Position numbers and translations under genes: made by a program. Source: a virus. From it: DNA of 23,145 bases. The notes beneath the pieces were generated by a model. That model worked only from the letters and a program-made list of their open reading frames with translations. It ran no database searches and was not told the origin of the DNA. The stretch lies in the IMG/VR virus record IMGVR_UViG_3300048091_000086, positions 1 to 23,145 of that record; one strand, 5' to 3'. This document shows positions 8,454-22,064 of the stretch, piece by piece; the first letter of the stretch is position 1; each line of letters opens with the position of its first letter.

Positions 8454-11038
8454 TGGCCGATAACGACTTCGTTCGCTCTTCCTGCTATGCCGCTGCGGCC
8501 AATGCTGCCAAGGCTGCCGGGGCAGAACTCAGCGATCGTGACCTTGCCGCGGCTTTCCGTCAGGCGACCGAGGAAAAGGCACGCCTTAAGGCTTCCGGGA
8601 CCACGGATAACGTCGCCGACCGCATGAAGGTCATTGCCGACCAGACAGCGGAACGGACGCGGATCGCTTCTGCAATGCAGAAGCGGCATGCGGCCTTGAA
8701 CATTCTTGCGCGCGATCGCCTGGAACAGACGCTTGAAGCCTTCAAGAAGGCGGGTCTTTCTCCTAGGGATTCCATCCTCGCCGTCATGGAAGGCTCGCAG
8801 CAGGGAATTGCTGGAGCACGGGATTCCGTTCATGCCCGTCGCCTTGGCTACGAGGCTCGCTACGTCGGCGGCATGATGGCCGAGATCCAGAAGAACCGGC
8901 CGCATCTCGTCAATGTCCTGGCCGATAAGAGACTATCCGATGACGTCTTCCGCGAGATGGGCGAGCTTCGCGAAGGCGGCAAGCCGGGGGTGACCGGCAA
9001 TGATGACGCCAAATATCTGGCCGATGTCTTCGCCAAGCATGTGGAAGCCAGCCGAACGGACCTCAACCGCCTCGGGGCGTCGATCGGCAAGCTCGATGGC
9101 TGGGCCGGCGCCCAGGTTCACGACGACATGAAGATGATGCGGGCCGGCAAGAAATCATGGGTCGACCAGACCGCGACCCTTCTCGACCTGAGCCGCACCT
9201 TCCCTGATGCGGTGACCAGCAACGATGTCCGCGGTATCCTCGGAGATATCTACGACACCATCATCACCGGCGTGCCGAACAAGGCAACGGCAAAGGAGAT
9301 GGGCCAGCGGGTCAATCCGGCCAATCTCGCCAAGTCGCTCGGCAAGACCCGCGTGTTGCATTTCAAGGATGCTGAGAGCGCGATCGCCTACCGTGATGCC
9401 TTCGGCTACGGCAATTCGATCTATGGCATCATGGCCCATCAGCGCAGGGCAGCAAGCCTCGCGGCGCAGATGGACATGTTTGGGCCCAACCCGGAAGTGA
9501 TGTTCAATAGCCTCGTCGAGAGCGAACGCCGCAAGCTCAGGGATAATCCGGACCTTTCTCCAGAAGACAAAGTCAAGGCCATCCAGAAGCTCAACGCCGA
9601 CACCGGGCCATTGCGGGGGGCCTTTGACGTCATGTCCGGAGCCATCTCTCGTCCTGGCAACGTCAATGCCGCCAAGATCTCCAACGACATCCGCGCGGTG
9701 CAAAGCATGGCCAAACTCGGCGGTGCTGTCCTCACGGCCATGCCGACCGACGTGGTTGGCGCTGCGCAAGCGTCCATGTTCCGCGGCAATGGCTTCTTCA
9801 ATGGCATGGTCAAGCAGATCGGCGGCATCCTGAAGGGCAGGCCGAAGGAAGAGCAAGCCGAGATCTCGTATCTGTTCGGTGAAGGCTTCGACAGCCTGAT
9901 TGGTGACGTCCTCTCGCATGGCCTCGCCAATGACGGCCCAGTCGGCAAGATGAGCAAGCTGACCGAATCCTTCTTCAAATGGAACGGCCTGAACTGGTGG
10001 ACGGATGTTGGCCGCTCTGTCGTTGGCCGCACGGTCGCCGCCGAGATGGGGATGAGGGCAGACACCGCCTTCAAGGACCTCCCGGCGAACTATTCGCATG
10101 TGCTTGGCCTCCATGGCATCAGCGAGAAGCAATGGGAGGCCCTGCGGCAAGCAACAAGGCGCGAGGTGAACGGAAACGCCTACATCACGCCAGACGCCAT
10201 CCGTGAGCTTCCTGACGCCGCTGTAGAACCGTTGGTGGCTGACAGGCTGGCAGGAGCGAAGACGCCGGAGCGCAAGGCCGAGATCATTGATCAGGCAAGG
10301 CGCGATCTGGAGCTTCAGTCGCTCCGCTTCGTGGCCGATGAAACAAATTATGCCATCGTCGAAACCGACGCAGCATCGCGCAGGATCTCGACGCTCGGCA
10401 CTCGGCCGGGAACATTCGCAGGTGAAGCCGCTCGCTTCGTCATGCAGTTCAAGGGATTCCCGATCGCCTTCTCTCAGCGCATCCTTGGCCGCGCTCTGTT
10501 CGGGGGCAGGGGTGCCACCAAGTACGAGCGCATCATGAACAATGCGCCGCATCTCGGGGCTTTGATCGGGGGCCTGACAGTCGCTGGCTACATGGCCATG
10601 ACCATGAAGGACTTGGCGAAAGGCTACTGGCCGCCGCGTGATCCGCTCGACCCGAAGGTCATCACGGCGGCTCTGACGCAGGGCGGGGCGCTGGGCATCT
10701 ATGGCGACTTCCTCTTTGGAGAGGCTAATCGCTTTGGCTCGGGTGCACTGGAGACCTTCTCCGGCCCGTTCATCGGGACGCTGAGCGACATAGTGAATGT
10801 GCCGCTGAAGGCGCGGACGGCTTTGGAGAAGGGAGAGCGCCCGAAGATGGCAGGGGACATCCTGAACCTCGCGCTTCAGAACACTCCGTTCATCAACCTG
10901 ACCTATGCACGGCCGGCGCTCGATGTCCTGTTTCTGAACTCACTGAGGAACTGGGCAAGCCCAGGCTACACCAACCGCATGCAGCGGCAACGGCTCAAGG
11001 ACTATGGCCAGCGCCCGCTAATGCCATCCACGCTATGA
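8453..11038 (+). CDS. Large internal virion / ejection protein, T7 gp16 position
   Basis: 861 residues from ATG 8453, whose A is the last base of the preceding TGA stop (TGATG). This matches the coupled overlaps elsewhere in the operon. An in-frame TTG at 8414 would add 13 residues but would overlap by 40 nt and looks less likely. The N-terminus starts ADNDFVRSSCYAAA. The middle is helical and alanine-rich. The C-terminal third has the recurrent podoviral ejection-protein motif RFVMQFKGFPIAFSQRILG, then two hydrophobic helices (LGALIGGLTVAGYMAMTM; GGALGIYGDFLFGE) and an INLTYARPALD motif near the end. Family role: inner-membrane part of the ejectosome. No lytic transglycosylase motif is visible; that domain is in the gp15-position protein. 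The 3' end overlaps a reverse-strand gene by 44 nt. Confidence 0.68.
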   Translation: MADNDFVRSSCYAAAANAAKAAGAELSDRDLAAAFRQATEEKARLKASGTTDNVADRMKVIADQTAERTRIASAMQKRHAALNILARDRLEQTLEAFKKAGLSPRDSILAVMEGSQQGIAGARDSVHARRLGYEARYVGGMMAEIQKNRPHLVNVLADKRLSDDVFREMGELREGGKPGVTGNDDAKYLADVFAKHVEASRTDLNRLGASIGKLDGWAGAQVHDDMKMMRAGKKSWVDQTATLLDLSRTFPDAVTSNDVRGILGDIYDTIITGVPNKATAKEMGQRVNPANLAKSLGKTRVLHFKDAESAIAYRDAFGYGNSIYGIMAHQRRAASLAAQMDMFGPNPEVMFNSLVESERRKLRDNPDLSPEDKVKAIQKLNADTGPLRGAFDVMSGAISRPGNVNAAKISNDIRAVQSMAKLGGAVLTAMPTDVVGAAQASMFRGNGFFNGMVKQIGGILKGRPKEEQAEISYLFGEGFDSLIGDVLSHGLANDGPVGKMSKLTESFFKWNGLNWWTDVGRSVVGRTVAAEMGMRADTAFKDLPANYSHVLGLHGISEKQWEALRQATRREVNGNAYITPDAIRELPDAAVEPLVADRLAGAKTPERKAEIIDQARRDLELQSLRFVADETNYAIVETDAASRRISTLGTRPGTFAGEAARFVMQFKGFPIAFSQRILGRALFGGRGATKYERIMNNAPHLGALIGGLTVAGYMAMTMKDLAKGYWPPRDPLDPKVITAALTQGGALGIYGDFLFGEANRFGSGALETFSGPFIGTLSDIVNVPLKARTALEKGERPKMAGDILNLALQNTPFINLTYARPALDVLFLNSLRNWASPGYTNRMQRQRLKDYGQRPLMPSTL

Positions 11039-11276
11039 AGGCAGCGCCGACGAGCGCGGCGAGCCACATGAGAATGGTCGAAGAGACAAGCGTCTTGGCG
11101 CCTTCTCGTCCATTGACGATCACACCGATGACGGCAAGCAGGCCGATGATCCAGACGATGCCGATCGGCAACTCAAAGCCTCGGGTCCACCGGTGTTCAA
11201 TCAGCATGCCACCTGCAGCGGCAAAGCCGAGCATGGCCGCGATGAATACAATGAACTGCTGAGTGTCTTTGCTCAT
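10995..11276 (-). CDS. Small three-helix membrane protein, reverse-strand moron candidate
   Basis: 93 residues, starting MSKDTQQF. It contains three clear transmembrane segments: about residues 8-24 (FIVFIAAMLGFAAAGG), 37-54 (PIGIVWIIGLLAVIGVIV) and 66-87 (STILMWLAALVGAAFIAWMALA), with charged loops between. I chose ATG 11276 because an AAGG-type site lies just upstream; an upstream in-frame ATG at 11327 would add a basic tail without a good ribosome site. It is antisense to the virion operon, and its 3' end overlaps the gp16-position gene by 44 nt. The plus strand has no convincing gene here, which supports this reading. Family not recognised. Plausible roles are superinfection exclusion or another lysogen-expressed membrane function, but this is inference from size, topology and orientation. 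Confidence 0.6.
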   Translation of the reverse strand: MSKDTQQFIVFIAAMLGFAAAGGMLIEHRWTRGFELPIGIVWIIGLLAVIGVIVNGREGAKTLVSSTILMWLAALVGAAFIAWMALAGAGHSP

Positions 11277-11338
11277 TCGGCCTTCGGTCGGTCGGGATGG
11301 TCGACCACTCATACAACGAAAACGCACTGCAAACCAAG

Positions 11339-11361
11339 GGCTCCTTTCTGGGGGCCTTTTT
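11339..11361 (+). terminator. Intrinsic terminator upstream of the tailspike gene
   Basis: The stem GGCTCC (11339-11344) pairs with GGGGCC (11351-11356) with one U-G wobble and a 6-nt loop; TTTTT follows (11357-11361). It lies 17 nt before the tailspike ATG, after the virion operon. That leaves no room for a promoter between terminator and gene, so tailspike expression presumably depends on read-through. It is 21/26 identical to the terminator at 16254-16276. Confidence 0.75.
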
Positions 11362-11378
11362 CACTTCAAGGAATCCAC

Positions 11379-13784
11379 ATGACCTCGATCCAAATTGACC
11401 GCACGGATGGCCTCTCGTCGAGCACCGCGTTCAAGGGGCCGTGCAAGGCCGCAACGACCGTCAATATCGCGCTCTATGGCGAGCAGACGCTTGATGGCAT
11501 TGCCATCGTCACTGGTGACCGCGTCATGGTCAAGGACCAGGCGGCCGGCTACGAGAACGGCATCTATGTGGTCGATACCGGACAATGGCGCCGCGCCAAG
11601 GACTTCAGCCGCAACAATGACGTCCGCGAGGGAACGCAGGTCTTTGTCGCCAACGGCACGACCTATGAGCGGACGCTTTGGTGTGTCACGACCAATGACC
11701 CGATCGTCATCGGAACAAACGACGTCACTTTCCTGCAGACGATCGTCAGCGCCTTCGAACTTGAAGCACTGATAGCGCAGGCAGAAGCTGCGGCCGCCGC
11801 GGCAGAAGCCGCAGCCGCGTCATTGCCGCCGATTACGGCAAACACGATGCTGGTCGACAATGCCGCTGGCACCTCTCGTGAATCGAAGTCTTTCCCGGAC
11901 GTTCGCAATCTCCTCGACCTGGCGGTATTCGTCGACACCAGGACGGCGCTCAAGGCGCTCGACACGACGAAGGATGTCAATGCATACCTCAGGGAATCCG
12001 GCCGCGAGGGCCACTTCCTTTGGGTAGCCGGTGACTTCTCAACGCTCATTACAGCGGACACCCTTGAGGGCCTCTATATAAAGGCAAACGCCATCGCCTC
12101 GTCTGCTGGCGCATGGGTCCGTCAAGGCGGCTGGGCTGTGACCGGTGTCGATGCTCGTTGGTTCGGTTATGTCGCTAACTACAACTCGACGACGGGCGCA
12201 GGTACAGACATGGGGCCGTTGCTGGCCTCGATCTTGGCTATCTCCACGGTGATGGAAGTCCATTGCCCGACTGGCCTTGCCAAGCTCGACAATCTGGAGA
12301 TCCCCAAAGGCAAGGTAGTGCGCGGCGTCAAGCCCGCATTCGAGAGCTTTCTGGCAAACACCCGCAAGCCGGACAACATCAAGGGCACCGTGTGGTGTAC
12401 GCGCGCCGCCGGCGTGATGTCATCGGGGAGACCGACGAACGAGATTGTGCGCCTCAATCAGTACTCGGGTCTTGCCGATGTTCTGATATTCCATGATGGC
12501 CAGCCTACTCCGGGTGTCGGATGGACACCGACAAATACCCCTTGGGGCGTTCGTGCTGGACGCTTTGCCGACACGACCCGCGATGTCCGAGCTGAGCACT
12601 GCTGGATGGAGGGCGTGACGGTGCTAGCCTTCACGCACTGCATCGAGTTCCAGAAGGGCGGCGAAGGCGGCTATATCCGTGATTGCAAATGGCACGGGTT
12701 CAATATCGGTCTGTCCCTCGACAACATCCACCACATCATCATGCTGGATAATACCGAGGCTTACCCGTACTGGAACGGCGATGCCAACGTGCAGATCTAC
12801 ATGTACAACAACTACGTCGCCTACGAGATCGGGCGTGTGGATGGTCTCCGCGTCAAAGGCGGCATGTTCTCGATCTGGACGAATGTCGGCGTGGGCTTTG
12901 TGCCGTCGCGCTCGACAGACTTCCCCAATCAGTCAAGCGCGTTCATCGACGTTGACAGCATCTATAGCGATAGCTGTGTCCACGGCTTCATGGTGTACCC
13001 TGGTATCACGGGGGCTCCAATGACTGGGACGATCGGCCACATGATCGTTCACCGCGCGAGCATTACGGGTCTTGATATCGACAGCAACCCCGCTGTCGAC
13101 TATGGCGTTCGCCTTCGCGGCTGGTGTGATTTCCATGTTCACCATTTCGAAGGCTCCGGCTCCGGCTTTGCCCGCAAGGGCGGCCATGTCGTCGCTACGA
13201 CCGATGGATCGAAAATGTCGATCGGTCATGCCCGTGTCTGCGAATGGGATACGGATGGCCTCAACAAGCCGGCGTTCTCGTTTGGCGTTGCAGGGACTGA
13301 GCTCAGCATTGAGCAGCCTCTGGACATCTTCCAAGGCTCTGGCGGCTGGTTTGTCACCACAAAGCGCCTGTTCCAAGGGGATGCGTCGGCCGGTGAAAAC
13401 AACATCACGACGGGCCGCCATCTGTATCTTGACGGCATCGGCTTCGTCTCTAACCGATCAGTGACGGTGAACAGCGCGGAACAAACGCTCTTTGCTTCTC
13501 ACCCGGTCAAGATGCTATCCGCCGGCTATCGAGAGTACCGCGCTCGTGGTCGCGTTGGAACGCATGCCACAACTACCACTCTCACGCTGCACGCTGGTTC
13601 GGCAACGGTGATCACGACGGCGCTGTCCTGCCCTGCGAGCGGTTCAACGCTCGATGTAGACGGCACCTGGAAGACGATCAATCTAGACCCGACGACGGAA
13701 CCGGAGTTCGGCGCGCTACAGGCTATCGGCACGCCCGGTGATGCGAGCCTGCTGTTCCTGAGATTGGGCTTTGAATTCAGGTAA
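11379..13784 (+). CDS. Tailspike / tail fibre protein with beta-helix-like body
   Basis: 801 residues from ATG 11379, chosen because AAGGA (11368-11372) lies 6 nt upstream; the frame is open further upstream but runs through the terminator. Residues 1-125 are the conserved virion-anchoring domain of many podoviral tail fibres: AATTVNIALYGEQTLDG, GDRVMVKDQ, ENGIYVVDTGQWRRAKDF, VFVANGTTYE. An alanine/glutamate-rich helix (about 128-148) links to the body (about 150-700), rich in Gly/Asn/Val strands as in right-handed beta-helix depolymerases. The last 100 residues look like a separate strand-rich, Thr-rich binding or trimerisation domain. Likely role: recognising and perhaps cleaving a host surface polysaccharide. 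No catalytic residues can be assigned by eye. It is followed by the putative glycan-modifying gene, a telling neighbour. Confidence 0.8.
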   Translation: MTSIQIDRTDGLSSSTAFKGPCKAATTVNIALYGEQTLDGIAIVTGDRVMVKDQAAGYENGIYVVDTGQWRRAKDFSRNNDVREGTQVFVANGTTYERTLWCVTTNDPIVIGTNDVTFLQTIVSAFELEALIAQAEAAAAAAEAAAASLPPITANTMLVDNAAGTSRESKSFPDVRNLLDLAVFVDTRTALKALDTTKDVNAYLRESGREGHFLWVAGDFSTLITADTLEGLYIKANAIASSAGAWVRQGGWAVTGVDARWFGYVANYNSTTGAGTDMGPLLASILAISTVMEVHCPTGLAKLDNLEIPKGKVVRGVKPAFESFLANTRKPDNIKGTVWCTRAAGVMSSGRPTNEIVRLNQYSGLADVLIFHDGQPTPGVGWTPTNTPWGVRAGRFADTTRDVRAEHCWMEGVTVLAFTHCIEFQKGGEGGYIRDCKWHGFNIGLSLDNIHHIIMLDNTEAYPYWNGDANVQIYMYNNYVAYEIGRVDGLRVKGGMFSIWTNVGVGFVPSRSTDFPNQSSAFIDVDSIYSDSCVHGFMVYPGITGAPMTGTIGHMIVHRASITGLDIDSNPAVDYGVRLRGWCDFHVHHFEGSGSGFARKGGHVVATTDGSKMSIGHARVCEWDTDGLNKPAFSFGVAGTELSIEQPLDIFQGSGGWFVTTKRLFQGDASAGENNITTGRHLYLDGIGFVSNRSVTVNSAEQTLFASHPVKMLSAGYREYRARGRVGTHATTTTLTLHAGSATVITTALSCPASGSTLDVDGTWKTINLDPTTEPEFGALQAIGTPGDASLLFLRLGFEFR

Positions 13785-13789
13785 CGCAG

Positions 13790-13927
13790 TTAACCGAAAA
13801 ACGGGGCTGGCAAGATTGCCAGCTTCTCTGCCGACCAGAAAACAACGACCCCTATGGCGGCGAATACGCCGATCATCCCGGCTACGGTGAGAAAGCCTTT
13901 GATCGGTGCGAGTATAAAATTGTTCAT
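13790..13927 (-). CDS. Very small membrane protein, 45 aa, reverse strand
   Basis: ATG 13927 on the reverse strand is preceded by a perfect GGAGGT 4 nt upstream. The frame runs 45 codons to TAA. The peptide begins MNNFILAPIKGF and has one strong hydrophobic helix (about residues 12-31: FLTVAGMIGVFAAIGVVVFW), then a short Lys-containing linker and a PAPFFG end. The Shine-Dalgarno, the membrane helix and placement in a gap with no plus-strand gene all support a real gene. It is convergent with the tailspike gene (stop codons 5 nt apart) and divergent from the membrane glycosyltransferase-like gene. No family recognised; it could be an inhibitor or exclusion peptide, or a partner of the divergent gene. 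Confidence 0.6.
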   Translation of the reverse strand: MNNFILAPIKGFLTVAGMIGVFAAIGVVVFWSAEKLAILPAPFFG

Positions 13928-14010
13928 TGCAACCTCCATTTGGAGTGGATGCCTAGCATTTGCAGGGACTGTCGTCTATTCGGGGATTTGAATATCTCTG
14001 TGAGGCAGCT

Positions 14011-16224
14011 TTGAAATCCGCATTTATTTTGGGGGCGCCGCTCCTGCTTATCGTGCTTCTTGTCAACGGCGCTGTGCCTGGGCTCATGGCTCCGACGACC
14101 GCGCAGTTGTTCTGGTCAACCGGGTTCTCGCAGTCGTTCGCCAATGGCGGGTTGTCAATCTTCGCTCAAAACTTCGGTCTTCCAGAGCCCGCGGCCATGG
14201 CCTTCGGCTTGGCTGGCGCGTTCCCAGTGGCGGTCTTGATCAAAATTGGCATTCATCCGATCGAGGCTTACACGACGGTCTTTGCCTTGTGGCTTACCGT
14301 CGCCTTTGTAGGAGCCTACTGGTTGGCCAAGCAACTCGGAGGCAGCAGCTTCGTTTCGCTCTGTTGTGCCGCAATCTGGGGAACAATGCCGGTTATCGGC
14401 CAGCATCAGGCGTTTGGCATGGTGGCGCTAGGCATGGCCCTCCTGCCATTCTATGTCGCGGTGTCTTACCGCCTCATGCGCGGAGAAAAGGCTGGAACCA
14501 GGATAGCGACGCTGTTCATTGCCGCATGCGTGGTAGCCGTCTTCATGGATGGCTACACCTACATGATGTTTGCTGTCGCAACTGGCTTCATTGCTCTGGC
14601 CACCCTGATCGAGCGTTGGGGGGACTGTCGTAAGGATACGTTTATCCGCCTCGCTGTCGTAGCGGCCGGATTCGCCGCTTCATACCTGCTTTACATCGCA
14701 TATCTCGGCAAAAGTGGATTCGAGGCTGCCGAGCTTGATTTCTTCCGTGGATGGGCCGCCAGCATTGAGTTTCTGTTTGTCGCGACGAAGGGCCTGCTGC
14801 TGATTCCTGATCTGATCGGGATTAGCGACAAGCGGTTGCCCGATGAGTATTTCGGAGACCCATCGACCTATATCTCGACGTTTGCTCTGCCCATAGCGGC
14901 AGTTGCAGCCATCTGTCTTTTGGCCCGCGCCGGCAAGCTGAGTGATCGGGTCATCTTCGCACTGATCGCGCTGTTCGGGTTCTACATGTGCCTCGGTCCT
15001 TCGGTGAAGTTCCTTACCTACAGGTCGGAGGGCATGAGCCAGTTGATGCCGGCGGACTTGTCTCGCGGGGGCACCGGATCGGCATGGTTCTCTGAACACC
15101 TTCCGGGGTTCAAGAACATGCGGGCAAGCTATCGTTGGGTGGCGCTCGGCATTTTCGGGTCCTGGGCAATATTGGCGCTTGCCGCTACCCAGCGGGATTT
15201 GAGGAAAGTCATCGTCCCCTGCATGATAGCGGCTGCGATCTTCAATATTCCGACCATTGCGTCACTGACGCAGCCGACCAAGTTCCGGCAAATGGCCTAC
15301 GCAATTGATCGGGACGTGGAGCAAATGCGGCCATTCTTCAAGCCGGGGGAGAAGGTCGCAATGCTCCCCTATCGCAATGACTTCCTGGCCAACTACATCG
15401 CAGCACGTCTCAATATCGAGACCTACAACATCGGGGGCGACAAGAACCTGGTCGAGGCAAGCGAGCATTGGCCGGTAACCATGCAGCGGTTCAGTCAAGG
15501 CATCATCGATGATCAATACCCACGAAACGTTGCCGCGATTTTGGAAAGCGCCGACGCTGACGCTGTCATGCTGCCGTATTTTGACCTGCTCGAGGCGGCT
15601 CACAAATGGCCGTACCCTAAGGACTACGAAGGGCAGATGAGGGCGATTGCCGCAGCGGTCGATGCAGACCCGCGAATTGTCGCCACCTATGCAGAGCAAT
15701 TCGCAGTCTTGCGCTTGAGCTATGGCCTGAAAGGGCTTGGGGATACAGCTCGTGAGCCTCTTAAAATTGATCGCAGCGAGGTCCTTGTTAGTTCGTCGAC
15801 GACGGACCAGAACACATTCGCTGGCGTGGGATGGTATCCGCTCGAGCCGACCGGGATATGGTCGCGGGGTAGCTCCGAACTCATTATCAACGTGAAGGAT
15901 GCCAGTGATCACCTATCCGGCATTCAACTGACATTCACGCCATACACACCCCAGCCTGACGACAAGATGACTGTGACAGTTCTCGATCATGGCAATCTGG
16001 TCGTCGAGAAGGAATTCACAGGCCAAACGCCGAACGCATCCCTGCTGGTCGCTCTGTCGCCTGAGATGATCGACGAGAAGGGCAATATCCGGCTGCATAT
16101 CGAAGCAAGCCCACTGCATTCTCCGGCAGATAACGGAAGCGCTGACGCTCGCCGTTTGGGCATCATGCTTCATAGCGTCTCGCCGAAATTCTCGGACGGT
16201 AACAACTACGCCGTTCTGGAATAG
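14011..16224 (+). CDS. Polytopic membrane protein, likely GT-C-type surface-glycan glycosyltransferase (lysogenic conversion candidate)
   Basis: 737 residues from TTG 14011, chosen for GAGG (14002-14005) 5 nt upstream; TTG 13960 in the same frame is an alternative start (754 aa) with poorer spacing. The first ~400 residues hold about 10-12 transmembrane helices with a large first external loop (FSQSFANGGLSIFAQNFGLP), the layout of GT-C-like enzymes using polyprenyl-linked donors. Residues about 400-600 form a soluble region. Residues 605-735 are a strand-rich domain starting GWYPLEPTGIWSRG and ending SPAD..SADARRLGIMLHSV, a C-terminal module I know from O-antigen-type glycosyltransferases. 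The expected acidic catalytic residues of the first loop are not evident. AT-richer codon choice (TTT, ATT) than neighbours suggests acquisition. Likely role: O-polysaccharide modification by the lysogen. Confidence 0.62.
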   Translation: MKSAFILGAPLLLIVLLVNGAVPGLMAPTTAQLFWSTGFSQSFANGGLSIFAQNFGLPEPAAMAFGLAGAFPVAVLIKIGIHPIEAYTTVFALWLTVAFVGAYWLAKQLGGSSFVSLCCAAIWGTMPVIGQHQAFGMVALGMALLPFYVAVSYRLMRGEKAGTRIATLFIAACVVAVFMDGYTYMMFAVATGFIALATLIERWGDCRKDTFIRLAVVAAGFAASYLLYIAYLGKSGFEAAELDFFRGWAASIEFLFVATKGLLLIPDLIGISDKRLPDEYFGDPSTYISTFALPIAAVAAICLLARAGKLSDRVIFALIALFGFYMCLGPSVKFLTYRSEGMSQLMPADLSRGGTGSAWFSEHLPGFKNMRASYRWVALGIFGSWAILALAATQRDLRKVIVPCMIAAAIFNIPTIASLTQPTKFRQMAYAIDRDVEQMRPFFKPGEKVAMLPYRNDFLANYIAARLNIETYNIGGDKNLVEASEHWPVTMQRFSQGIIDDQYPRNVAAILESADADAVMLPYFDLLEAAHKWPYPKDYEGQMRAIAAAVDADPRIVATYAEQFAVLRLSYGLKGLGDTAREPLKIDRSEVLVSSSTTDQNTFAGVGWYPLEPTGIWSRGSSELIINVKDASDHLSGIQLTFTPYTPQPDDKMTVTVLDHGNLVVEKEFTGQTPNASLLVALSPEMIDEKGNIRLHIEASPLHSPADNGSADARRLGIMLHSVSPKFSDGNNYAVLE

Positions 16225-16253
16225 ACGACAGACAGGACAGCAACGTTTTCCAA

Positions 16254-16276
16254 GGCTCGCTTCGGCGGGCCTTTTT
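16254..16276 (+). terminator. Intrinsic terminator upstream of the lysis genes
   Basis: The 7-bp stem GGCTCGC (16254-16260) pairs with GCGGGCC (16265-16271) around a stable TTCG tetraloop; TTTTT follows (16272-16276). It lies 29 nt after the stop of the membrane glycosyltransferase-like gene and 25 nt before the endolysin ATG. Sequence and position closely resemble the terminator at 11339-11361. Endolysin transcription from upstream would have to read through it. Confidence 0.85.
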
Positions 16277-16301
16277 CTTTCCCCACAATCTGGAGCGTCC
16301 T

Positions 16302-16850
16302 ATGGACCGCAAGTCGTTCTACGACGTGCTGCGAGGCAGCGCGCTATTTCCGCATGGCCTGTCGACGGACCAAGTCAAAGGCATGGAAGCTTTGCTGGAT
16401 GCGGCGCAAGGGCTGGCAGCAGACGAGACGGCCTATGTTATGGCGACGGCCTATCACGAAACCGCCGAGACGATGCGGCCCATCGCTGAATACGGCAAAG
16501 GGAAGGGCCGCAAGTACGGCGTGCCTGGTCGTAATGGCGGGCAGGTGCCTTATGGTCGCGGCTTCGTGCAGACGACCTGGGACCAGAACTATGAGCGCAC
16601 CGATCGGGAGCTTGGCCTTGGCGGCCGGCTGATCGCCAACTACAGCCTGCTACTGACCGATACTGCTATGGCTGCACAGGCTGCCGTCCGGGGCATGGTC
16701 GAAGGTTGGTACACAGGCAAGAAGCTCTCCGATTACTTCGCCGGCGGCAAATGCGACTTCGTCAATGCGCGTCGGATCATTAATGGCACCGACAAGGCGG
16801 AGAAGATCGCCAGCCATGCCCGCGTCTTTCTGAAGGCAATCCAACAATGA
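16302..16850 (+). CDS. Endolysin, GH19-like (chitinase-type lysozyme fold)
   Basis: 182 residues; GGAG (16292-16295) sits 6 nt before ATG. Motifs fit phage GH19-like endolysins: an N-terminal substrate-side helix (L-S-T-D-Q-V-K-G-M-E-A-L-L), then ATAYHETAETMRPIAEYG with candidate catalytic Glu53 and a second acid Glu63. A YGRGFVQTTWDQNYERTDREL segment follows (written with key positions: Y88-G-R-G-F-V-Q, W-x-x-N-Y). The C-terminus has the usual F-V-N-A-R-R-I-I-N-G-x-D motif. No signal peptide is present, so a holin is needed for release, and one follows immediately (ATGA overlap). Length and motif order are typical of single-domain endolysins. Role: cleavage of peptidoglycan glycan strands at the end of infection. 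Confidence 0.82.
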   Translation: MDRKSFYDVLRGSALFPHGLSTDQVKGMEALLDAAQGLAADETAYVMATAYHETAETMRPIAEYGKGKGRKYGVPGRNGGQVPYGRGFVQTTWDQNYERTDRELGLGGRLIANYSLLLTDTAMAAQAAVRGMVEGWYTGKKLSDYFAGGKCDFVNARRIINGTDKAEKIASHARVFLKAIQQ

Positions 16851-17137
16851 AGTTCTTCATGGATCATATGGCATCGCCAGATTGGGCGGTACGACGTCGG
16901 ATTATCATCCTCGTTCTGATCTGGGGTGCCGGGGTGGTGACTTACCTTGCGGTGTGGGGGCGGCCGATCGCGCTAAGCGACACCATCGCAATGAACCTGA
17001 TCTTGCTGATGGGCGGCATCATCGGCTCCTACGTCTTCGGCGCGGTCTGGGAAACGAATGTTGCCCGGAAGTCCAACATCGCCCAGCAGGCGGTAGAGCA
17101 GGGCGATGCTGATACGACCGTCGAGGTGAAACCATGA
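16847..17137 (+). CDS. Holin, two transmembrane segments
   Basis: 96 residues; ATG overlaps the endolysin stop (ATGA). After a short basic N-terminus (WAVRRRI) come two hydrophobic helices, about residues 19-37 (IIILVLIWGAGVVTYLAVW) and 48-66 (MNLILLMGGIIGSYVFGAVW). A charged, Glu/Asp-rich cytoplasmic tail ends V-E-V-K-P. The GSYVFGAVWE motif at the second helix end recurs in small rhizobial phage holins, as far as I recall. Size, topology and place between endolysin and spanins support holin function: inner-membrane pore formation that times lysis. There is no obvious dual-start motif for an antiholin, although M1 and the nearby M5 and M8 give several possible starts. Confidence 0.75.
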   Translation: MKFFMDHMASPDWAVRRRIIILVLIWGAGVVTYLAVWGRPIALSDTIAMNLILLMGGIIGSYVFGAVWETNVARKSNIAQQAVEQGDADTTVEVKP

Positions 17138-17496
17138 TCGCTTTCCTCCTAAGCCCGATCGGCAAGGTTGCTGGCACCGCGCTCCTTGTCGTGGCTGTTT
17201 TCCTCGGCTTCCGCGTCTGGCTCGCCTCGCACGACAAGACCGTGCTGTCCGGATACGTCCTGCTGTCTGAAAAGACCGCAGCGGAAGCGACGGCAAAGGA
17301 AATGGAACGCCAGCGCAACGCGGCGTCTCAGGCTCTGGACGAGCACCGCAAACGCCTCGCCGCGGCGGAAGCTTCCGAGCAGGCCGCCAAGGATACCCTC
17401 GAAACTGAGATCAAAGCCTATGAGCTGCAGCTTAGCGAAAAGAACCGCGCTTGCCTTATCGATGACGCTGATCGTCTCTTCCTGCAACACCACTGA
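17134..17496 (+). CDS. Rz: Inner-membrane spanin (i-spanin, Rz-like)
   Basis: 120 residues; start overlaps the holin stop (ATGA). One N-terminal transmembrane helix (about residues 9-27, VAGTALLVVAVFLGFRVWL) is followed by a long charged coiled coil in the periplasm (about 40-100, rich in Ala/Glu/Lys/Arg). This is the standard Rz layout. The C-terminal part overlaps, in another frame, a small lipoprotein gene (17420-17725) that fits Rz1. Together they would span the periplasm and fuse inner and outer membranes in the last step of lysis. Identification rests on topology, position and the nested partner, since spanins diverge strongly in sequence. Confidence 0.75.
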   Translation: MIAFLLSPIGKVAGTALLVVAVFLGFRVWLASHDKTVLSGYVLLSEKTAAEATAKEMERQRNAASQALDEHRKRLAAAEASEQAAKDTLETEIKAYELQLSEKNRACLIDDADRLFLQHH

Positions 17497-17725
17497 CCGG
17501 CTCAATAAAGCGGCGACGACACAGGGCAAGATACAAGCTGGCATCGCGTTGCCGGCATGGCCCGACGACTGCCGGAAGACAGAGCCTCACGCTCCGGTCG
17601 AGGTTGGCGCAGAGCTGCGTTCCGTGCTTGTTCGGGAACGTAGCGCGCTCGACCGGCAGAACTCGCGTACGGGGCGCTGCGGGGCTTTCTACGACAGCGT
17701 GAAATCCAAGTACGGCGTTCACTGA
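17420..17725 (+). CDS. Rz1: Outer-membrane spanin lipoprotein (o-spanin, Rz1-like)
   Basis: 101 residues, beginning 77 nt inside the Rz-like gene in the +1-shifted frame. ATG 17420 gives a textbook lipoprotein signal: MSCSLAKRTA with basic residues, hydrophobic core LALSMTLIV, and lipobox V-S-S-C with the acylated cysteine at residue 22. ATG 17462 would leave too short a signal. The mature part (about 80 residues) has LPAWPDDC and further charged residues plus two more cysteines (about 56 and 90), which could form disulfides. Family role: outer-membrane half of the spanin complex. It extends well beyond the Rz stop, so the pair is overlapping rather than fully embedded. Confidence 0.72.
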   Translation: MSCSLAKRTALALSMTLIVSSCNTTDRLNKAATTQGKIQAGIALPAWPDDCRKTEPHAPVEVGAELRSVLVRERSALDRQNSRTGRCGAFYDSVKSKYGVH

Positions 17726-17763
17726 AACCATAGCATTGACTACGCATTGAAAGGGCTGGAACG

Positions 17764-18096
17764 TTGAACCCACCGAGCACCGAGATGGAATATGATCTCA
17801 GAACCCGCGTTGTCAGTCTCGAGCACCAATCCACACTGCATTCGCAGAGGATAGGCGAGTTGGAAAAGTGGCAACGCTTAAGTGACATTGCCGATGCTCG
17901 CAAAGACGAGCAGTTCAAGAATATGGACGCTCGGTTCTCGTCGATCGACAAGAAGATCGACGACCTGGGGAAATCCATGGGGGCGAAGACGGATGAGATC
18001 GGCGGCACGCTTAAGTGGGTCAACCGGACAATCCTGACGGGCGTCATCCTCGGGGTAATAGCGTTCCTGATCAAGGGCGGGTTCAATCTGCCCTAA
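17764..18096 (+). CDS. Coiled-coil protein with C-terminal membrane anchor (XhlA-like, lysis-associated)
   Basis: 110 residues from TTG 17764; AAGGG (17751-17755) sits 8 nt upstream. ATG 17785 is an alternative with a poorer site. Residues about 10-85 are charged and helical with heptad-like spacing (LEHQSTLHSQRIGELEKW; FSSIDKKIDDLGKSM). Residues about 88-106 form a single transmembrane helix (TILTGVILGVIAFLIKGG). This resembles XhlA-type small membrane proteins near lysis genes, or an accessory holin. It is the last rightward gene of the lysis block, 38 nt after the Rz1 stop. The exact function is unknown; the XhlA comparison is by architecture only. Confidence 0.6.
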   Translation: MNPPSTEMEYDLRTRVVSLEHQSTLHSQRIGELEKWQRLSDIADARKDEQFKNMDARFSSIDKKIDDLGKSMGAKTDEIGGTLKWVNRTILTGVILGVIAFLIKGGFNLP

Positions 18097-18147
18097 GCTC
18101 TCCTTTGTCACCAAACGTACAGATTAGAAGAATCTCATAAAAGCATC

Positions 18148-18183
18148 TTGACTGGCCGGATTTAATCATCACCTGATTCGGCC
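18148..18183 (+). promoter_or_regulatory. Candidate promoter/hairpin ahead of the DUF982 gene
   Basis: TTGACT (18148-18153) is a good -35-like element, preceded by C as in the rhizobial CTTGAC consensus. The matching -10 (CCTGAT, 18172-18177) is weak. The stem GGCCGGAT (18154-18161) can pair with ATTCGGCC (18176-18183), 8 bp with one G-U and a 14-nt loop. Its right arm abuts the Shine-Dalgarno GGAGG (18184-18188). It could be an operator or a 5' UTR hairpin that tunes translation. Confidence 0.35.
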
Positions 18184-18194
18184 GGAGGTGGCGC

Positions 18195-18542
18195 ATGTCC
18201 GAATATATAGGTGAACATATCCCCATCAGAGACTGCATCGTATGCGTTGAGAAGCGCAAAGGTGTCACCATGCGCCGGCACTGCACTCTTAGCGACCTTG
18301 CTTATAGCCTGCTCTACCGCTGGCCCGATGACCATCGCGGCAAGGAATGGCTGCTGGCGCAAACGATGTGCCTTGAGGCAATGGAAGGGCTAAGAGATCC
18401 TGAACAGGCGAGGGCGTCCTTTGTAGCAGCGGCCATCGCTGCAGAGATGCTGATGGTCAGGGAAGAGTATGTCCAGCAGCGACCCGCAAAGCGTCCGGCG
18501 AAGGGAAAGCGCGGGCAACGGTCGCTAGATACCGGGCCTTAA
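18195..18542 (+). CDS. DUF982-family-like small protein
   Basis: 115 residues; strong GGAGG 6 nt before ATG. The core matches my recollection of the DUF982 family: IPIRDCIVCVEKRKG, a short helix TLSDLAYSLLYRWP (family: EAAxxLxxxWP), then AQTMCLEAMEGLRDPEQARASF and an A-A-I-A-A-E-M-L helix (family: A..aC..aL.g...eeAR.aF..Aa.eA). The C-terminus is a Lys/Arg-rich tail beyond the domain. DUF982 proteins are abundant in rhizobia and on their mobile elements; their function is not established. The 3' end overlaps a convergent reverse gene by 18 nt. It probably has its own promoter, because a 98-nt gap separates it from the lysis genes. Confidence 0.6.
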   Translation: MSEYIGEHIPIRDCIVCVEKRKGVTMRRHCTLSDLAYSLLYRWPDDHRGKEWLLAQTMCLEAMEGLRDPEQARASFVAAAIAAEMLMVREEYVQQRPAKRPAKGKRGQRSLDTGP

Positions 18543-18803
18543 CCCTGCGAGCAGCCTGTCGTAATACTCCTCGACCATCCGAGAGGCTTCCCGAGCCGTC
18601 GCGACATAGCCGGTATTCGGTGCCACCCGTCGCTTGACATTCGGTCCCCCATTGCCGGACCAATGCCATCGCCCATTCATCGGGCCTGATTCCTCAAGCC
18701 TGATCCGGCCGACGGGCGTTTCCCCATCCCATGCCGCAAAGTCCTGATGGCCTTCTCCGGGCCACGTCTCACGCCACCGATACTTAGGTTTATATTCTTC
18801 CAT
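18525..18803 (-). CDS. Hypothetical small protein, 92 aa
   Basis: 92 residues, beginning MEEYKPKYRWRETWPGEG. It is rich in Trp, Gly and Arg, with a short strand pattern (VGRIRLEE, RWHWSG) and a C-terminal helix (TAREASRMVEEYYDRLLAGL). No family recognised; the composition suggests a small compact fold like other phage accessory proteins. No strong Shine-Dalgarno is visible. It lies 59 nt downstream of the HNH/integrase-N gene on the same strand and may be co-transcribed with it, or use a promoter overlapping the perfect dyad at 18828-18847. Convergent overlap with the DUF982 gene. Confidence 0.5.
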   Translation of the reverse strand: MEEYKPKYRWRETWPGEGHQDFAAWDGETPVGRIRLEESGPMNGRWHWSGNGGPNVKRRVAPNTGYVATAREASRMVEEYYDRLLAGLRPGI

Positions 18804-18827
18804 CTGCTAATTTTGACCGTGAACAGA

Positions 18828-18847
18828 TCGTGTCCAAAGTGACACGA
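18828..18847. repeat. Perfect inverted repeat containing CGTGTC
   Basis: TCGTGTC (18828-18834) and GACACGA (18841-18847) form a perfect 7-bp inverted repeat with a 6-nt centre. It sits in the 59-nt gap between two reverse-strand genes. It shares the CGTGTC core of the repeats beside the attachment site, so it may be a distant pair of integrase arm sites or an operator for the 92-aa gene. Confidence 0.5.
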
Positions 18848-18862
18848 CTATATTGGTCGCAA

Positions 18863-19483
18863 TCACCAATCTGTCGATACCAGCAACTTTCCATCCGCTG
18901 ATGACAAATCCGGAAAGCCCCTTCGGTCGTGTCCTGCTACTGCCTTGCAGACGGCGATGTAGTGATCCAGCCCCCACTCATTGATTCCGATATTCACGCC
19001 ATGAAGCACGAACCGGACATTCCCAGGCACATACCCTTTCGCGTTGTCGATCCTGTCTAGGCTCGGGCGCTGTGGGTGCTTGAAATACTTCTTGGTGCCT
19101 CGGGGCTGCGGATCGTAGTTGAACTCGATGCCGCTTATCTCGCACTTGTCGGAGCTCTTTCGCAGCTCTTCATGGATCCACTCTTCCGTGATGGCGAAGT
19201 CCTTCCCGATCTCCCGGGCTCTCTTCCTATACATCTTGAATAGCTGCTCCGCGATGTTCCGCCTTTTCCTCTGGCGCTCAGTCTGGACATCTCGTCCACG
19301 GCGCAGCTCGTCCGTCAGTTCCCGGCACCTTGCCGCGATCTCATCGTCGGAAAGCCCATCTGGCAGCCGCAGACGGAAAGCCTCTCCTCCAAATTGACGT
19401 GACGCCCTTCGAGGGTTCCAGTAGTGTGCTACACTGCCATCGCCATTGGTCCTAAATTGATAGCCAGGGCGGTCTCTTCTCAT
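18863..19483 (-). CDS. HNH-type nuclease fused to an integrase-like N-terminal domain
   Basis: 206 residues from ATG 19483 (GGAG 6 nt upstream; ATG 19489 has no spacing). Residues 1-60 align without gaps to the first 60 residues of the phage integrase (28 identical, including DRPGY, N-x-D-G, HYW-x-P-x-RA, L-x-DD-x-IA). That part of tyrosine recombinases usually binds arm-type sites. Residues about 66-95 are a basic helix. Residues about 113-180 match an HNH-like nuclease group: CEISGIEF, PSLDRIDNAKGYVPGNVRFV (141-160), then VNIGINEW. It sits across the attachment core from the integrase, same strand. Possibilities include a homing-type or att-associated endonuclease; the role is unproven. Start-region alignment supports both chosen starts. 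Confidence 0.72.
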   Translation of the reverse strand: MRRDRPGYQFRTNGDGSVAHYWNPRRASRQFGGEAFRLRLPDGLSDDEIAARCRELTDELRRGRDVQTERQRKRRNIAEQLFKMYRKRAREIGKDFAITEEWIHEELRKSSDKCEISGIEFNYDPQPRGTKKYFKHPQRPSLDRIDNAKGYVPGNVRFVLHGVNIGINEWGLDHYIAVCKAVAGHDRRGFPDLSSADGKLLVSTDW

Positions 19484-19492
19484 GCGCATCTC

Positions 19493-19529
19493 CGTGTCAG
19501 TTCCCGAGTGGGACTATACCACCCGGGAA
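19493..19529 (-). promoter_or_regulatory. Promoter/operator candidate of the HNH-integrase-N gene, with a CGTGTCA site
   Basis: TTCCCGAGTGG (19501-19511) and CCACCCGGGAA (19519-19529) form an 11-bp inverted repeat with one mismatch around a 7-nt centre. Read on the reverse strand the centre contains TATAGT, a good -10 box, 30 nt before ATG 19483. No convincing -35 is seen. A CGTGTCA copy (19493-19499, plus strand) adjoins it. A dimeric repressor or the integrase itself could bind here. Confidence 0.45.
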
Positions 19530-19573
19530 AAGTTTTGAGAGGAACGGCACGCTGATTTTACTAAGGTTTTTGA

Positions 19574-19621
19574 CAGTCTTCCAAGCTGAATACGCGGGTT
19601 CGATTCCCGCTACCCGCTCCA
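19574..19621. other. attP: Attachment core (attP-like): 3' half of tRNA-Gly(TCC)
   Basis: The sequence is the 3' part of a tRNA-Gly. It contains most of the anticodon stem-loop with anticodon TCC (loop CTTCCAA at 19578-19584), the variable region, the T-arm GCGGG-TTCGATT-CCCGC (19594-19610), the 3' acceptor strand TACCCGC and a genomically encoded CCA (19619-19621). The 5' half of the tRNA is absent: the bases upstream do not form a D-arm or pair with the acceptor. Such fragments are what phages carry so that integration restores the host tRNA gene. The integrase gene starts the next block and CGTGTCA repeats lie beside it. It could be attP of a free phage, attR of a prophage, or a tandem-prophage junction. 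Confidence 0.82.
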
Positions 19622-19647
19622 AGATTTTCAACCACTTAGCAATACCG

Positions 19648-19677
19648 CGTGTCACTCCGTGTCACGCCGTGTCAGAG
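19648..19677 (+). repeat. Three CGTGTCA direct repeats, 10-bp spacing (arm-type integrase sites)
   Basis: CGTGTCA occurs at 19648, 19658 and 19668, exactly one helical turn apart, in the 50 bp between the tRNA-Gly core and the integrase stop. The third copy overlaps the stop codon (19672-19674). A fourth copy is at 19493, on the other side of the core. Spacing and position are typical of arm-type binding sites for the N-terminal domain of a tyrosine integrase. Confidence 0.7.
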
Positions 19678-20814
19678 ACGGTTTTTCGCTCTGGCCTCGG
19701 CTACCTTCCGGCTTGCTTCCAACCCATCGCCACGGCTGTAGCGCCGCGTCGTCTTCGTCGTTGTGTGGGTTGCCAGATCTCGAGCTGCTTCAAGCGAGCC
19801 CGTTGCTTCCACCGTCTCCGAAACCGCTCCGGCCCGCGAATCCATAGACCAGACGTCTTTCGACACGCCGGCCGCATCGCGCACCTTCTTGAATTTTTCG
19901 GTGTAGCGGTTCTCCCAGTAGGGTTTTCCGTAGTCTTCATCGATGACCACAGGCCCGATATCCGGGATCCGGTAGGCCTTCAGCGCTTCCTCAACGAGAG
20001 GATAGCCCTTCAGATCGCGTGCTACCGCGGCACCGGTCTTGCTCGTCTTGAGCGTCAGGATCATGTCTTTCGAGATGTCCTTGGCCATTAAGCCCGTCCA
20101 GCGGAACTCTCCACCTTCAGGCGGCGGCGCCCATTCCCCGATCACGTCGATCCGGCGCAGAGCCGTTTCGAACTTCACGGCTTCCACAAAGCCGATCGAG
20201 GGGCATTTCAGTTCCGCACTTTTCTTCACGATTGCCAAGCACTGCTCATAGGTCATCGCGACCGTGCGGCTCTTCGGCTGCTCGAAACGCATGTCGGAGA
20301 GGATCTCTCGGGCCTGAGAGCATCCAGGAAGCCGTTCACCCGCTCCATAGCTGATGATGAGCCGGAGGAGCTTAACCGCGCCTGACGCCCGTCTATGGCC
20401 TTTCTTGCGCCAGTTGGTGAACCATTCCCGGAAGTCGGATGCTCTGAGAGCATCGATACGCCTCTTTCCGACGTTCTTTTCCAGCACGCGAAGGCTTGGC
20501 TCATAGTCCCGGATGCGGGTCGAGTGCTTCACGCCGTGCAGTGTGCTCGTCTTGTCATGGCGATAGAGCTTGATCAGAGACTTGATGGTGCCATCAAATT
20601 CAATCGGGGTTTCCCGATCGATGAGCTCGGCCTTCAGAGCCTCGGTGCGCTTCTTGCATTCCTCGGCAATCTGGTCGTCTGTCAGGTCATCAGCGAGCCT
20701 GACAATCGAGAGGGCGGCAGGTGACCCCTTTACCGCCCTCTTCGGATCCCAGTAGTGGACGCGGGTGCCGTCCTTGTTATCCCGGTACTTATACCCGGGC
20801 CTATCAGTCCTCAT
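19672..20814 (-). CDS. int: Tyrosine-type site-specific integrase
   Basis: 380 residues from ATG 20814 (upstream AAGGAA; ATG 20832 in frame is possible). Residues 1-60 are an arm-binding-like N-terminal domain shared with the HNH protein across the attachment site. Residues about 70-180 form the core-binding SAM-like domain (IKSLIKLYRHDK ... RALRASDF-type helices). The catalytic domain has Arg220 (ETALRRIDV), Lys256 or Lys259 (TLKTSKT), Arg327 (W-S-M-D-S-R-A-G), His350 (ATHTTT) and nucleophile Tyr359 (RRYSRG). Box II reads M-D-S-R, lacking the usual first His. It acts on the tRNA-Gly att core just downstream. The gene is the last of a leftward early operon; its start overlaps the small gene before it by 11 nt. 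Confidence 0.88.
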   Translation of the reverse strand: MRTDRPGYKYRDNKDGTRVHYWDPKRAVKGSPAALSIVRLADDLTDDQIAEECKKRTEALKAELIDRETPIEFDGTIKSLIKLYRHDKTSTLHGVKHSTRIRDYEPSLRVLEKNVGKRRIDALRASDFREWFTNWRKKGHRRASGAVKLLRLIISYGAGERLPGCSQAREILSDMRFEQPKSRTVAMTYEQCLAIVKKSAELKCPSIGFVEAVKFETALRRIDVIGEWAPPPEGGEFRWTGLMAKDISKDMILTLKTSKTGAAVARDLKGYPLVEEALKAYRIPDIGPVVIDEDYGKPYWENRYTEKFKKVRDAAGVSKDVWSMDSRAGAVSETVEATGSLEAARDLATHTTTKTTRRYSRGDGLEASRKVAEARAKNRL

Positions 20815-21022
20815 CCCAGTCTTCCTTTCCATCAGGGGCAAGATTGCCCGATGGAACCTTGCCGCCGCCTCCGGTGGTCGTGTCAAGCAATTCCGGCTTG
20901 GGGATTCCGGGGATAGCGGTAACAACCAGCGTTTTAATATCGATCGTCACGGCCATGCCTTCGCTCTTGGCGGCGCGGAAGATCCGTTCCATGTCTGCCT
21001 GGCGGAAAGCTGCTCTGGTCAT
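20804..21022 (-). CDS. Small protein immediately before the integrase; excisionase candidate
   Basis: 72 residues; start overlaps the preceding HNH gene (ATGA) and its end overlaps the integrase start by 11 nt. The N-terminus (FRQADMERIFRAAKSEGMAV) followed by a strand (TIDIKTLVVTAIP) resembles a small helix-strand family common in rhizobial phages, whose members start with a TF-x-Q-AD-x-x-R-A-x-KAA pattern. The C-terminus is Gly/Asp-rich and probably disordered. Being coupled to int is what one expects of a recombination directionality factor, but no winged-helix or AlpA motif is clear. The functional call is therefore only a hypothesis from position. Confidence 0.55.
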   Translation of the reverse strand: MTRAAFRQADMERIFRAAKSEGMAVTIDIKTLVVTAIPGIPKPELLDTTTGGGGKVPSGNLAPDGKEDWDED

Positions 21023-21399
21023 CGGCTCACAATCTCCCCAGTTCTGGTGTCGACGATGTCGCCGTTCATCTTCTTTTTGAACCGTTTCTGGAATCCGCCA
21101 GACTTCGACTTGACGCCGAGATGCTTCAACCGGTTGGCGTTGACCTTCGCGCGCACGGTCGCCTCGGTCTTGGTCTTTCCCTTGTGAGCGTCAGACAAGA
21201 CAGCCTGGAGATTGCTCTCCCGGTTCTCGCCTCCGAGCCAAAGAGGCGTGATGTGATCGAACTCGATCTTGTCACCGGGGCGGAACTCATGGCCGGTCAA
21301 CGCGCACCGATCTCCTTGCTTGCGCAGGATTCGGTCCTTGCATGCGTCAGTCGGCATGCTGTCGTCGGTGCGGCCGCGCCATTCTTCAACCGTTCGCAT
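21019..21399 (-). CDS. HNH endonuclease (classic DHI...GG-N type)
   Basis: 126 residues from ATG 21399, which lies inside the end of the preceding gene with GGAGG 9 nt upstream. Motif order: an N-terminal EEWRGRTDD segment, Cys32 (GDRCALTGHEF), then FDHITPLWLGGENRESNLQ with His49 and Asn63, and His72-Lys73 (DAHKGKT). This is the standard HNH signature. The C-terminus is very basic (FQKRFKKK), suited to DNA binding. The paired cysteines of a full zinc site are missing. Very similar small HNH proteins recur in early operons of rhizobial phages; roles may include DNA processing or packaging support. Its stop overlaps the next gene (ATGA). Confidence 0.8.
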   Translation of the reverse strand: MRTVEEWRGRTDDSMPTDACKDRILRKQGDRCALTGHEFRPGDKIEFDHITPLWLGGENRESNLQAVLSDAHKGKTKTEATVRAKVNANRLKHLGVKSKSGGFQKRFKKKMNGDIVDTRTGEIVSR

Positions 21400-21748
21400 T
21401 GAGGAAGTCCTCCATGTCGATCTGAGGAGCCTTGCGGCGGCGTGTGACAGCGGCATTGGCCGCGTGGTGCTTGGCATCCCATTTCAGGTGGCAACGCTGG
21501 CAAAGTGCTCGGCAGCGCTCGGGATCGGCATGGCTTTCGTCATGATCCATGTGAGCAATGGTCAAAACGACCTTGCTGCCGGTCTCTGGATGGATGCCGC
21601 GGTTCTCGGCTCGGCAGTCCGGATGCTGCGGCGTACCTTCGCAGGCATTCCCGGCGCGATCGAGGATGGACTGACGAAACGCCTTCCATTCCTTCGAATG
21701 CGTTCCGCCACCTGGATAGAGCTTCATACGGTCAGCGCGGATCGGCAT
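21386..21748 (-). CDS. HNH-like endonuclease with Cys4-type zinc site
   Basis: 120 residues from ATG 21748; AGGAGG lies just upstream and the start is inside the end of the previous gene (17-nt overlap). Motifs: KEWKAFRQSILDRAGNAC with Cys36, Cys45 (HPDC), TIAHMDHDESHADPERC with His66 and His69, and ALCQRCHLKWDAKH with Cys83, Cys86 and His87. The two Cys pairs and the central His residues fit a zinc-stabilised HNH fold. The N-terminal MKLYPGGGTHSKEW segment is typical of phage HNH proteins. It directly precedes a second, different HNH gene, so the operon encodes two nuclease types in tandem. Confidence 0.72.
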   Translation of the reverse strand: MPIRADRMKLYPGGGTHSKEWKAFRQSILDRAGNACEGTPQHPDCRAENRGIHPETGSKVVLTIAHMDHDESHADPERCRALCQRCHLKWDAKHHAANAAVTRRRKAPQIDMEDFLNANG

Positions 21749-22064
21749 CGGCCACCTCCTGAACGTCGAGGGGATGGGAGATGAGCGTCTGAGTTTCGCC
21801 AGGTTTGACAAACCGCACATATTGGGCGTCGGCGCCGACCCAGTGAGCCTGTTTCCCGCTGACCAGAATCGGACGCCCGTACCCTGTTGGATCTTCCCCG
21901 CGCTTGATGCTGCTGATCGTCATGAACTCCTTGAACGAGCAATGACGATAGGAGCAGTAGGCGTGCCAGGCTTTAACCCGAGCCGCAGCCGGAGAGTGCG
22001 CGTCGTACGGATGCGCCGGGAAGCCGGTCACGCTCACGAGGTAGCGCTTGAGGAGGAAACTCAT
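21732..22064 (-). CDS. Conserved-looking hypothetical early protein, 110 aa
   Basis: 110 residues; GGAGG 7-8 nt before ATG, start overlapping the preceding gene (ATGA). It starts MSFLLKRYLVSVTGFPAHP and contains YDAHSPAAARVKAWHAY, a helix that in related rhizobial phage proteins (by memory) has the form PYDAxSPxxARxxA. The later part carries strands around ILVSGKQAHWVGADAQYVRFV and ends acidic (DVQEVADADPR). Two Cys/His pairs (YCSYRHCSF) might bind metal. Function unknown. Gene order (before the HNH pair) and tight overlap imply co-expression in the early leftward operon. Confidence 0.62.
   Translation of the reverse strand: MSFLLKRYLVSVTGFPAHPYDAHSPAAARVKAWHAYCSYRHCSFKEFMTISSIKRGEDPTGYGRPILVSGKQAHWVGADAQYVRFVKPGETQTLISHPLDVQEVADADPR

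Follow-up and report, generated by a model that had tools for sequence, protein, structure and literature searches.

The closest precedent for a nuclease with a borrowed recognition domain is, in principle, Odn (Gp88), the origin-directed nuclease of Vibrio phage ICP1, which cuts the origin of a satellite and whose DNA-binding part is 42% identical to the satellite RepA_N domain (PMC8263062). The locus described here carries, in the left arm of a phage attachment site (attP), a gene whose product by its sequence is an HNH nuclease with a borrowed integrase arm-binding domain. Odn and this chimera are alike in joining a homing-type nuclease to the site-recognition domain of a mobile element. 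They differ in parts and in target: Odn combines a T5orf172 nuclease with RepA_N and acts on a replication origin, whereas the chimera shows HNH families and an integrase-type N-terminus in place of the two Odn domains, and its presumed target is attP, within which its gene is carried. Free-standing phage HNH homing endonucleases (surveyed, for example, in PMC10448857) have in common with the chimera an HNH domain, presence or absence in close relatives and a location where mosaic genomes show raised identity to each other; unlike them, the chimera has an arm-binding domain of the adjacent integrase's type and sits in an attachment site. With the lambda-type integration module the locus shares a tyrosine integrase with an arm-binding N-terminus, a core formed by a tRNA 3' end and arm repeats on two sides, the same layout being described for cluster J mycobacteriophages (PMC3706429). 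Unlike in the lambda-type module, the left-arm sites of our locus are separated from the core by the nuclease gene.

The window that we analysed spans an entire virus record (23,145 bases), so that host genes beyond its ends are out of view. An earlier note on this DNA had described a tRNA-Gly 3' fragment lacking its 5' half, with phage genes on both sides, and we found the same. The fragment reads as an anticodon arm with TCC, a T-arm and CCA, and ARAGORN found no complete tRNA in the window. The core shares 47 of its 48 bases with intact Rhizobiaceae tRNA-Gly(TCC) genes adjoining integrase relatives (L022, L024, L032, L035, L043, L044, L048, L055, L088, L089, L096, L103 and others); the lone mismatch is a T at 19577, where the host tRNAs have C. 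This likeness is not chance, because when the whole window was compared by megablast with 50,697 phage records, the core was the one place that matched, and it did so to tRNA-Gly genes (5 records). A phage-borne tRNA gene was considered as a reading of the core and rejected, since the 5' half is absent. Tail, internal virion and lysis genes lie to the left (523-18096), and the integrase followed by further small genes on the minus strand lies to the right. Absent from the earlier note was the gene directly left of the core, which is that of the chimeric nuclease inside attP (Table 1). Elsewhere on the left side, a 754-aa ORF between the tail fibre and lysis genes (13960-16224, plus strand) has a membrane protein-like sequence and fell into no family of Pfam at E 0.1 or of PHROG at E 0.01. 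A DUF982 protein (18195-18542, plus strand; Pfam E 4.6e-10) is 98% identical to its copy in G002, and a diverged copy of its gene occupies the equivalent place in G012.

Table 1. Positions of the features of the attachment region in the window.
Feature	Position	Strand	Remarks
Segment of raised identity to G002	18812..19722		left arm, nuclease gene, core, right arm
Left attP arm	18829..18846	+	predicted outer site CGTGTC 18829-18834; predicted inner inverted site 18840-18846
Chimeric HNH endonuclease, 208 aa	18863..19489	-	phrog_3322, E 9.1e-25
Predicted HNH nuclease domain, about residues 74-187	18929..19270	-	from families, alignment and model
Predicted nuclease N-terminal domain, residues 3-63	19301..19483	-	integrase arm-binding type
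Extra arm-type site CGTGTCA	19493..19499	+	3 bp upstream of nuclease start codon
attP common core	19574..19621	+	3' part of tRNA-Gly(TCC), anticodon arm to CCA
Right attP arm	19648..19674	+	three direct CGTGTCA(C) repeats, 10-bp period; motif scan
Tyrosine integrase, 417 aa	19672..20925	-	conserved reading starts at ATG 20814
72-aa ORF	20804..21022	-	overlaps integrase start; conserved alongside integrase

The integrase is of the lambda type. Its profile (A5) aligned with lambda Int residues 71-348 (E 7e-13), profile position 68 corresponding to lambda residue 71, and its fold matched lambda Int (E 6.9e-10). Residues R220, D223, R327 and Y359 are invariant and K259 nearly so; in Pfam and NCBIfam, no family passed the cut-off for either the integrase or the chimeric nuclease. 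The 72-aa ORF had tblastn matches upstream of int in most window-type loci and, judged by position alone, is a candidate directionality factor. A second HNH protein is encoded near the integrase (21019-21477, minus strand; Pfam HNH E 6.3e-4, just under the cut-off) and has relatives in many related phage loci.

Relatives in free and integrated form bear on the nature of the core. Integrase relatives were found in 13 viral contigs and in 7 genome contigs, the latter of Rhizobium, Sinorhizobium, Agrobacterium and Pleomorphomonas, and 101 bases around the core, used as query, matched in 9 of 16 related records. In integrated relatives an intact tRNA-Gly(TCC) adjoins the integrase, often with a tRNA-Tyr next to it (L004, L005, L007, L015, L043, L044, L048, L055, L088, L089 and others), and L091, L094, L106 and L107 have tRNA-Gly(CCC) instead. 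The provirus G003 has both ends: an intact tRNA-Gly by int at 1.5 kb (attL) and a second, 3'-fragment copy of the core at 40.9 kb (attR), 39.4 kb apart. As for free genomes, G002 has an exact 66-bp direct terminal repeat and an internal att site with phage DNA on either side, and another record, G001, runs across the junction of its ends. G014 has an exact 127-bp direct terminal repeat, shares structural genes with the window in conserved order, and matches the window in its order structural genes, att, int. Phage DNA is thus continuous across the site in both free genomes and, by analogy, in the window; the two sides of the window core also recur together in G002. The metagenome contigs G001 and G016, of the G002 population, end 17 and 101 bp past the core, as would be seen if the samples held a mixture of free and integrated forms, or of variants.

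Together with an integrase beside the core and flanking arm-type repeats, which are predicted from sequence, these findings make it nearly certain that the core is that of an ordinary attP. The phage is temperate, belongs with the Rhizobiaceae, and uses its integrase on tRNA-Gly(TCC). The earlier note had read the order of structural and lysis genes, att, int and early genes as that of an unintegrated genome; by comparison with the terminal-repeat records G002 and G014, which carry the site internally, this is the order of the window record, the site being attP.

The arms have a recurrent anatomy. Window-type right arms hold up to three direct CGTGTCA(C) repeats with a period of about 10 bp between the core and the int stop codon, over which the repeats of the window end; they are present in most window-type att sites, with copies degenerate or missing in some. 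In five left arms that lack the nuclease gene (G012, G014, L045, attR of G003, and L030), the inner inverted site lies about 30 bp from the core and the outer site about 40 bp beyond it. In the window these sites are parted from the core by the nuclease gene, and, by comparison with G012, the stretch separating the outer site from the inner one lacks about 34 bp. The extra arm-type site lies 74 bp from the core. Eight copies of CGTGTCA are present in the window (3.1 expected), and five of them fall within 18840-19674.

We next consider the product of the inserted gene. In addition to phrog_3322, it matched endonuclease VII (phrog_1035, E 2e-15). Its N-terminal 60 or so residues resemble the integrase of the window itself (38% identity over 86 columns, E 4e-17). 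This shared part lies at what we take to be the position of the arm-binding domain of lambda Int, given the lambda domain border, because the integrase profile aligns from lambda residue 71 onward. AlphaFold2 predicted the same order of strands and helix in both N-termini: strands 10-14 and 20-24 and helix 26-29 in the nuclease (mean pLDDT 79), and strands 8-12 and 18-22 and helix 24-27 in the integrase. The C-terminal part is predicted to form a beta-beta-alpha fold and aligns with PacI (VIA-align Z 8.5, rmsd 4.2, 111 residues). The PDB fold matches listed for the nuclease cover mainly residues 72-205 and none covers the N-terminal domain, which is not counter-evidence. Every one of the 12 rows of alignment A4 retains the HNH signature, the invariant residues including C116, S143, D145, R146, N157, N166 and W172. 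Signature and modelled fold are both as expected of an HNH homing endonuclease.

The gene is present or absent at this site in close relatives, as is seen for homing endonucleases. It is present in the window, G002 and G016, and absent from G012, G015, G014, G003 and others. Comparison with G012 places it between the inner left-arm site and the core: to its left G012 and G015 are 95% identical to the window, to its right G012 is 97% identical, and in its place G012 and G015 have a spacer of about 30 bp. Of 13 non-host left arms compared, two (window and G002) have the nuclease; L013 and L053 are alike in this set, and G016, which duplicates G002, was left out.

The window and G002 share the blocks 17724-21024 (94.7%) and 21397-21760 (90.1%) and little else. 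Within the first block, the segment that comprises both arms, the nuclease gene and the core differs from G002 at 11 of 911 bp, its bounds having been set after inspection, and the flanks differ at 108 of about 1,589 bp. A less selective test than these post hoc bounds is a comparison of synonymous codon changes, which number 6/209 in the HNH gene and 66/418 in int (Fisher 2.4e-7), with 3 and 6 nonsynonymous changes, respectively. The nuclease DNA thus has a more recent common source in the window and G002 than its surroundings, as homing predicts. Ordinary mosaic exchange could also give such a segment.

The chimera recurs beyond this phage. A search with the window nuclease of 394 genomes from the family of G017 (Rhizobium sp. 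Root1212) matched 23 genomes. HNH proteins accounted for six of these (L095, L099, L104, L111, L113 and L114), and the remaining matches were integrase-length frames, found via the N-terminal domain. All six HNH genes immediately follow a tyrosine integrase on the same strand. Five have an intact tRNA (Cys, Thr, Arg, Leu, Met) at a distance of 6 to 69 bp. The L095 gene has a 45-bp fragment of tRNA-Cys 80 bp away, and another int-bearing element separates it from the intact tRNA-Cys. L095 itself comprises two tandem int-bearing elements at one tRNA-Cys with a common 45-bp core, the nuclease of one facing the junction. L104 has a second, 23-bp core copy 43.1 kb away; no attR was found within about 53-60 kb for L111, L113 and L114, or in the 20-kb contig stretch of L099.

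Viral contigs added the chimeras L139, L191 and L206 (L141 is identical to L114), of which L191 and L206 were found among 23 viral loci related to the integrase of one family chimera. With the window, this gives ten distinct chimeric loci. The nuclease directly follows its integrase in eight of the ten, and for most of the ten a tRNA or att core is no more than 80 bp away. In L139 the gene is not adjacent to an integrase; one lies about 1 kb off, with other DNA between. In the window the core lies between the gene and the integrase; in the other systems gene and integrase are on one side of it. A relative of the L113 integrase (L198, 81%) is without the nuclease, and its int stop codon lies 22 bp from tRNA-Leu; in L113 the nuclease stop codon lies 25 bp from tRNA-Leu, a spacer similar to that of L198.

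Alignment A2, used as the query, matched mostly integrases through the N-terminal motif (12/385 class genomes), and because of this we used an HNH-only alignment (A3). In the family sample A3 gave 15 matches in 394 genomes, six of them strong (E < 1e-40) and the next at 1.5e-12; the six are rows of A3, and the search shows only that no additional strong one turned up. The order sample gave 5 matches in 397 genomes, of which one, L134, was strong (4.1e-20); it has a different N-terminus and no integrase within its 3.3 kb. The class sample gave 3 weak matches in 385 genomes. No protein with both an integrase-type N-terminus and a strong HNH match was found in the order (397) or class (385) samples; the genome searches scored at most 7 (nuclease query), 8 (A2) or 12 (A3) first-look candidates per genome. 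Among phage and plasmid records no match covered at least 80% of a chimera, the phage matches covering the HNH part, and in non-fused HNH relatives (L073, for instance) the N-terminus is of another kind and the locus holds no integrase. We conclude that HNH chimeras with an integrase domain, recurring at att sites, very probably form a real class. We recognised no description of HNH enzymes with integrase arm-binding domains in the literature searched, which was mostly open-access published papers.

Does the nuclease N-terminus follow the type of the neighbouring integrase? In the nine systems with a known integrase, the own-pair score was matched or beaten in 42 of 200,000 permutations. The own integrase scored highest in five of the nine (window, L104, L111, L114 and L191), second in L099, third in L095, and fifth in L113 and L206. 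In a seven-system version 3 of 5,040 permutations reached the observed score; among 75 integrases the own one ranked 29, 13, 6, 1, 1, 8 and 1, that of the window (29th) standing behind integrases of its own subfamily among the top rows inspected. Within the six RHG-motif systems alone, own-pair matching was not significant (16,585/200,000 permutations). The signal arises from differing N-terminal types. Because a correlation with the integrase N-terminus is seen for the HNH domain too (Mantel r 0.565, 0/3,000), long co-inheritance is as possible as repeated capture.

The explanation that we favour overall, by a narrow balance, is a tRNA-Gly attP with an arm-domain HNH nuclease homing to attachment sites. 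For homing as the function of the nuclease we would give even chances; binding, cleavage and homing are all inferred. Related phages without the nuclease would be the targets: the arm-binding domain would dock at arm-type sites (CGTGTCAC family) of their attP, and the HNH domain would cut beside these sites, near the core. Repair templated by the phage with the nuclease would then copy the gene in beside its binding site. In the window, insertion would have moved the left-arm sites by about 700 bp, and the extra CGTGTCA may replace them or regulate the nuclease gene. A nuclease recognising the right-arm repeats alone would cut its own genome, because all three are intact in the window; self-protection would require the assumption that cleavage depends on the left-arm context, which is disrupted by the insertion. 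For the class as a whole, we lean slightly towards att-directed nucleases, in which an HNH domain with the local integrase's arm-binding domain would find and cut att sites, either to spread by homing or to sabotage rival prophages that use the same tRNA, the domain following the integrase type.

The strongest alternative, which we consider unlikely, is that the chimera is a weapon with which a resident or co-infecting phage cuts the attP or att junctions of rivals or satellites using the same att system. The design principle is that of Odn, which cuts satellite origins (PMC8263062), and several elements do compete for one tRNA, as with the two at tRNA-Cys. Homing, however, directly explains a gene that lies inside attP on DNA of raised identity moved between phages, and no target besides attP came to light. 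It is distinctly improbable that the protein is a regulator or accessory factor whose arm-binding domain contends with Int for arm sites and modulates integration or excision, nuclease activity being secondary or lost: an arm-type site does lie 3 bp from its start codon and the gene, directly after int in eight loci, is probably co-translated, but the conserved HNH signature and predicted beta-beta-alpha fold point to a working nuclease. We give equally little weight to the N-terminal likeness being incidental, either an integrase 5' fragment read into an HNH gene after duplication or tandem integration, or a beta-sheet domain of a common kind, in neither case with a targeting role. Elements do occur in tandem at a single tRNA, and varied N-terminal domains are common in HNH proteins, as in the non-fused relatives; against this, the nuclease N-terminus of the window keeps only about 38 to 59% identity to same-type integrases and is still intact, and several distinct integrase types are each matched. 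Of the earlier note's two readings, attP is borne out by G002, G014 and G003, and a junction of two tandem prophages, with the core an attL/attR, is scarcely credible: a single contig is compatible with it and tandem elements exist (L095), but it found no positive support here, G002 and G014 hold the same order with the site internal, and G002 has both flanks together.

Borrowed site-recognition domains are already known in a nuclease directed at satellite origins (Odn). If the same is true for integrase arm-binding domains, then attachment sites would be a battleground or a homing target, and this would help explain swaps of integration modules between otherwise unrelated phages, such as the window phage and G002. 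It would also provide natural nucleases with predictable att specificity, the proposed target being short and known.
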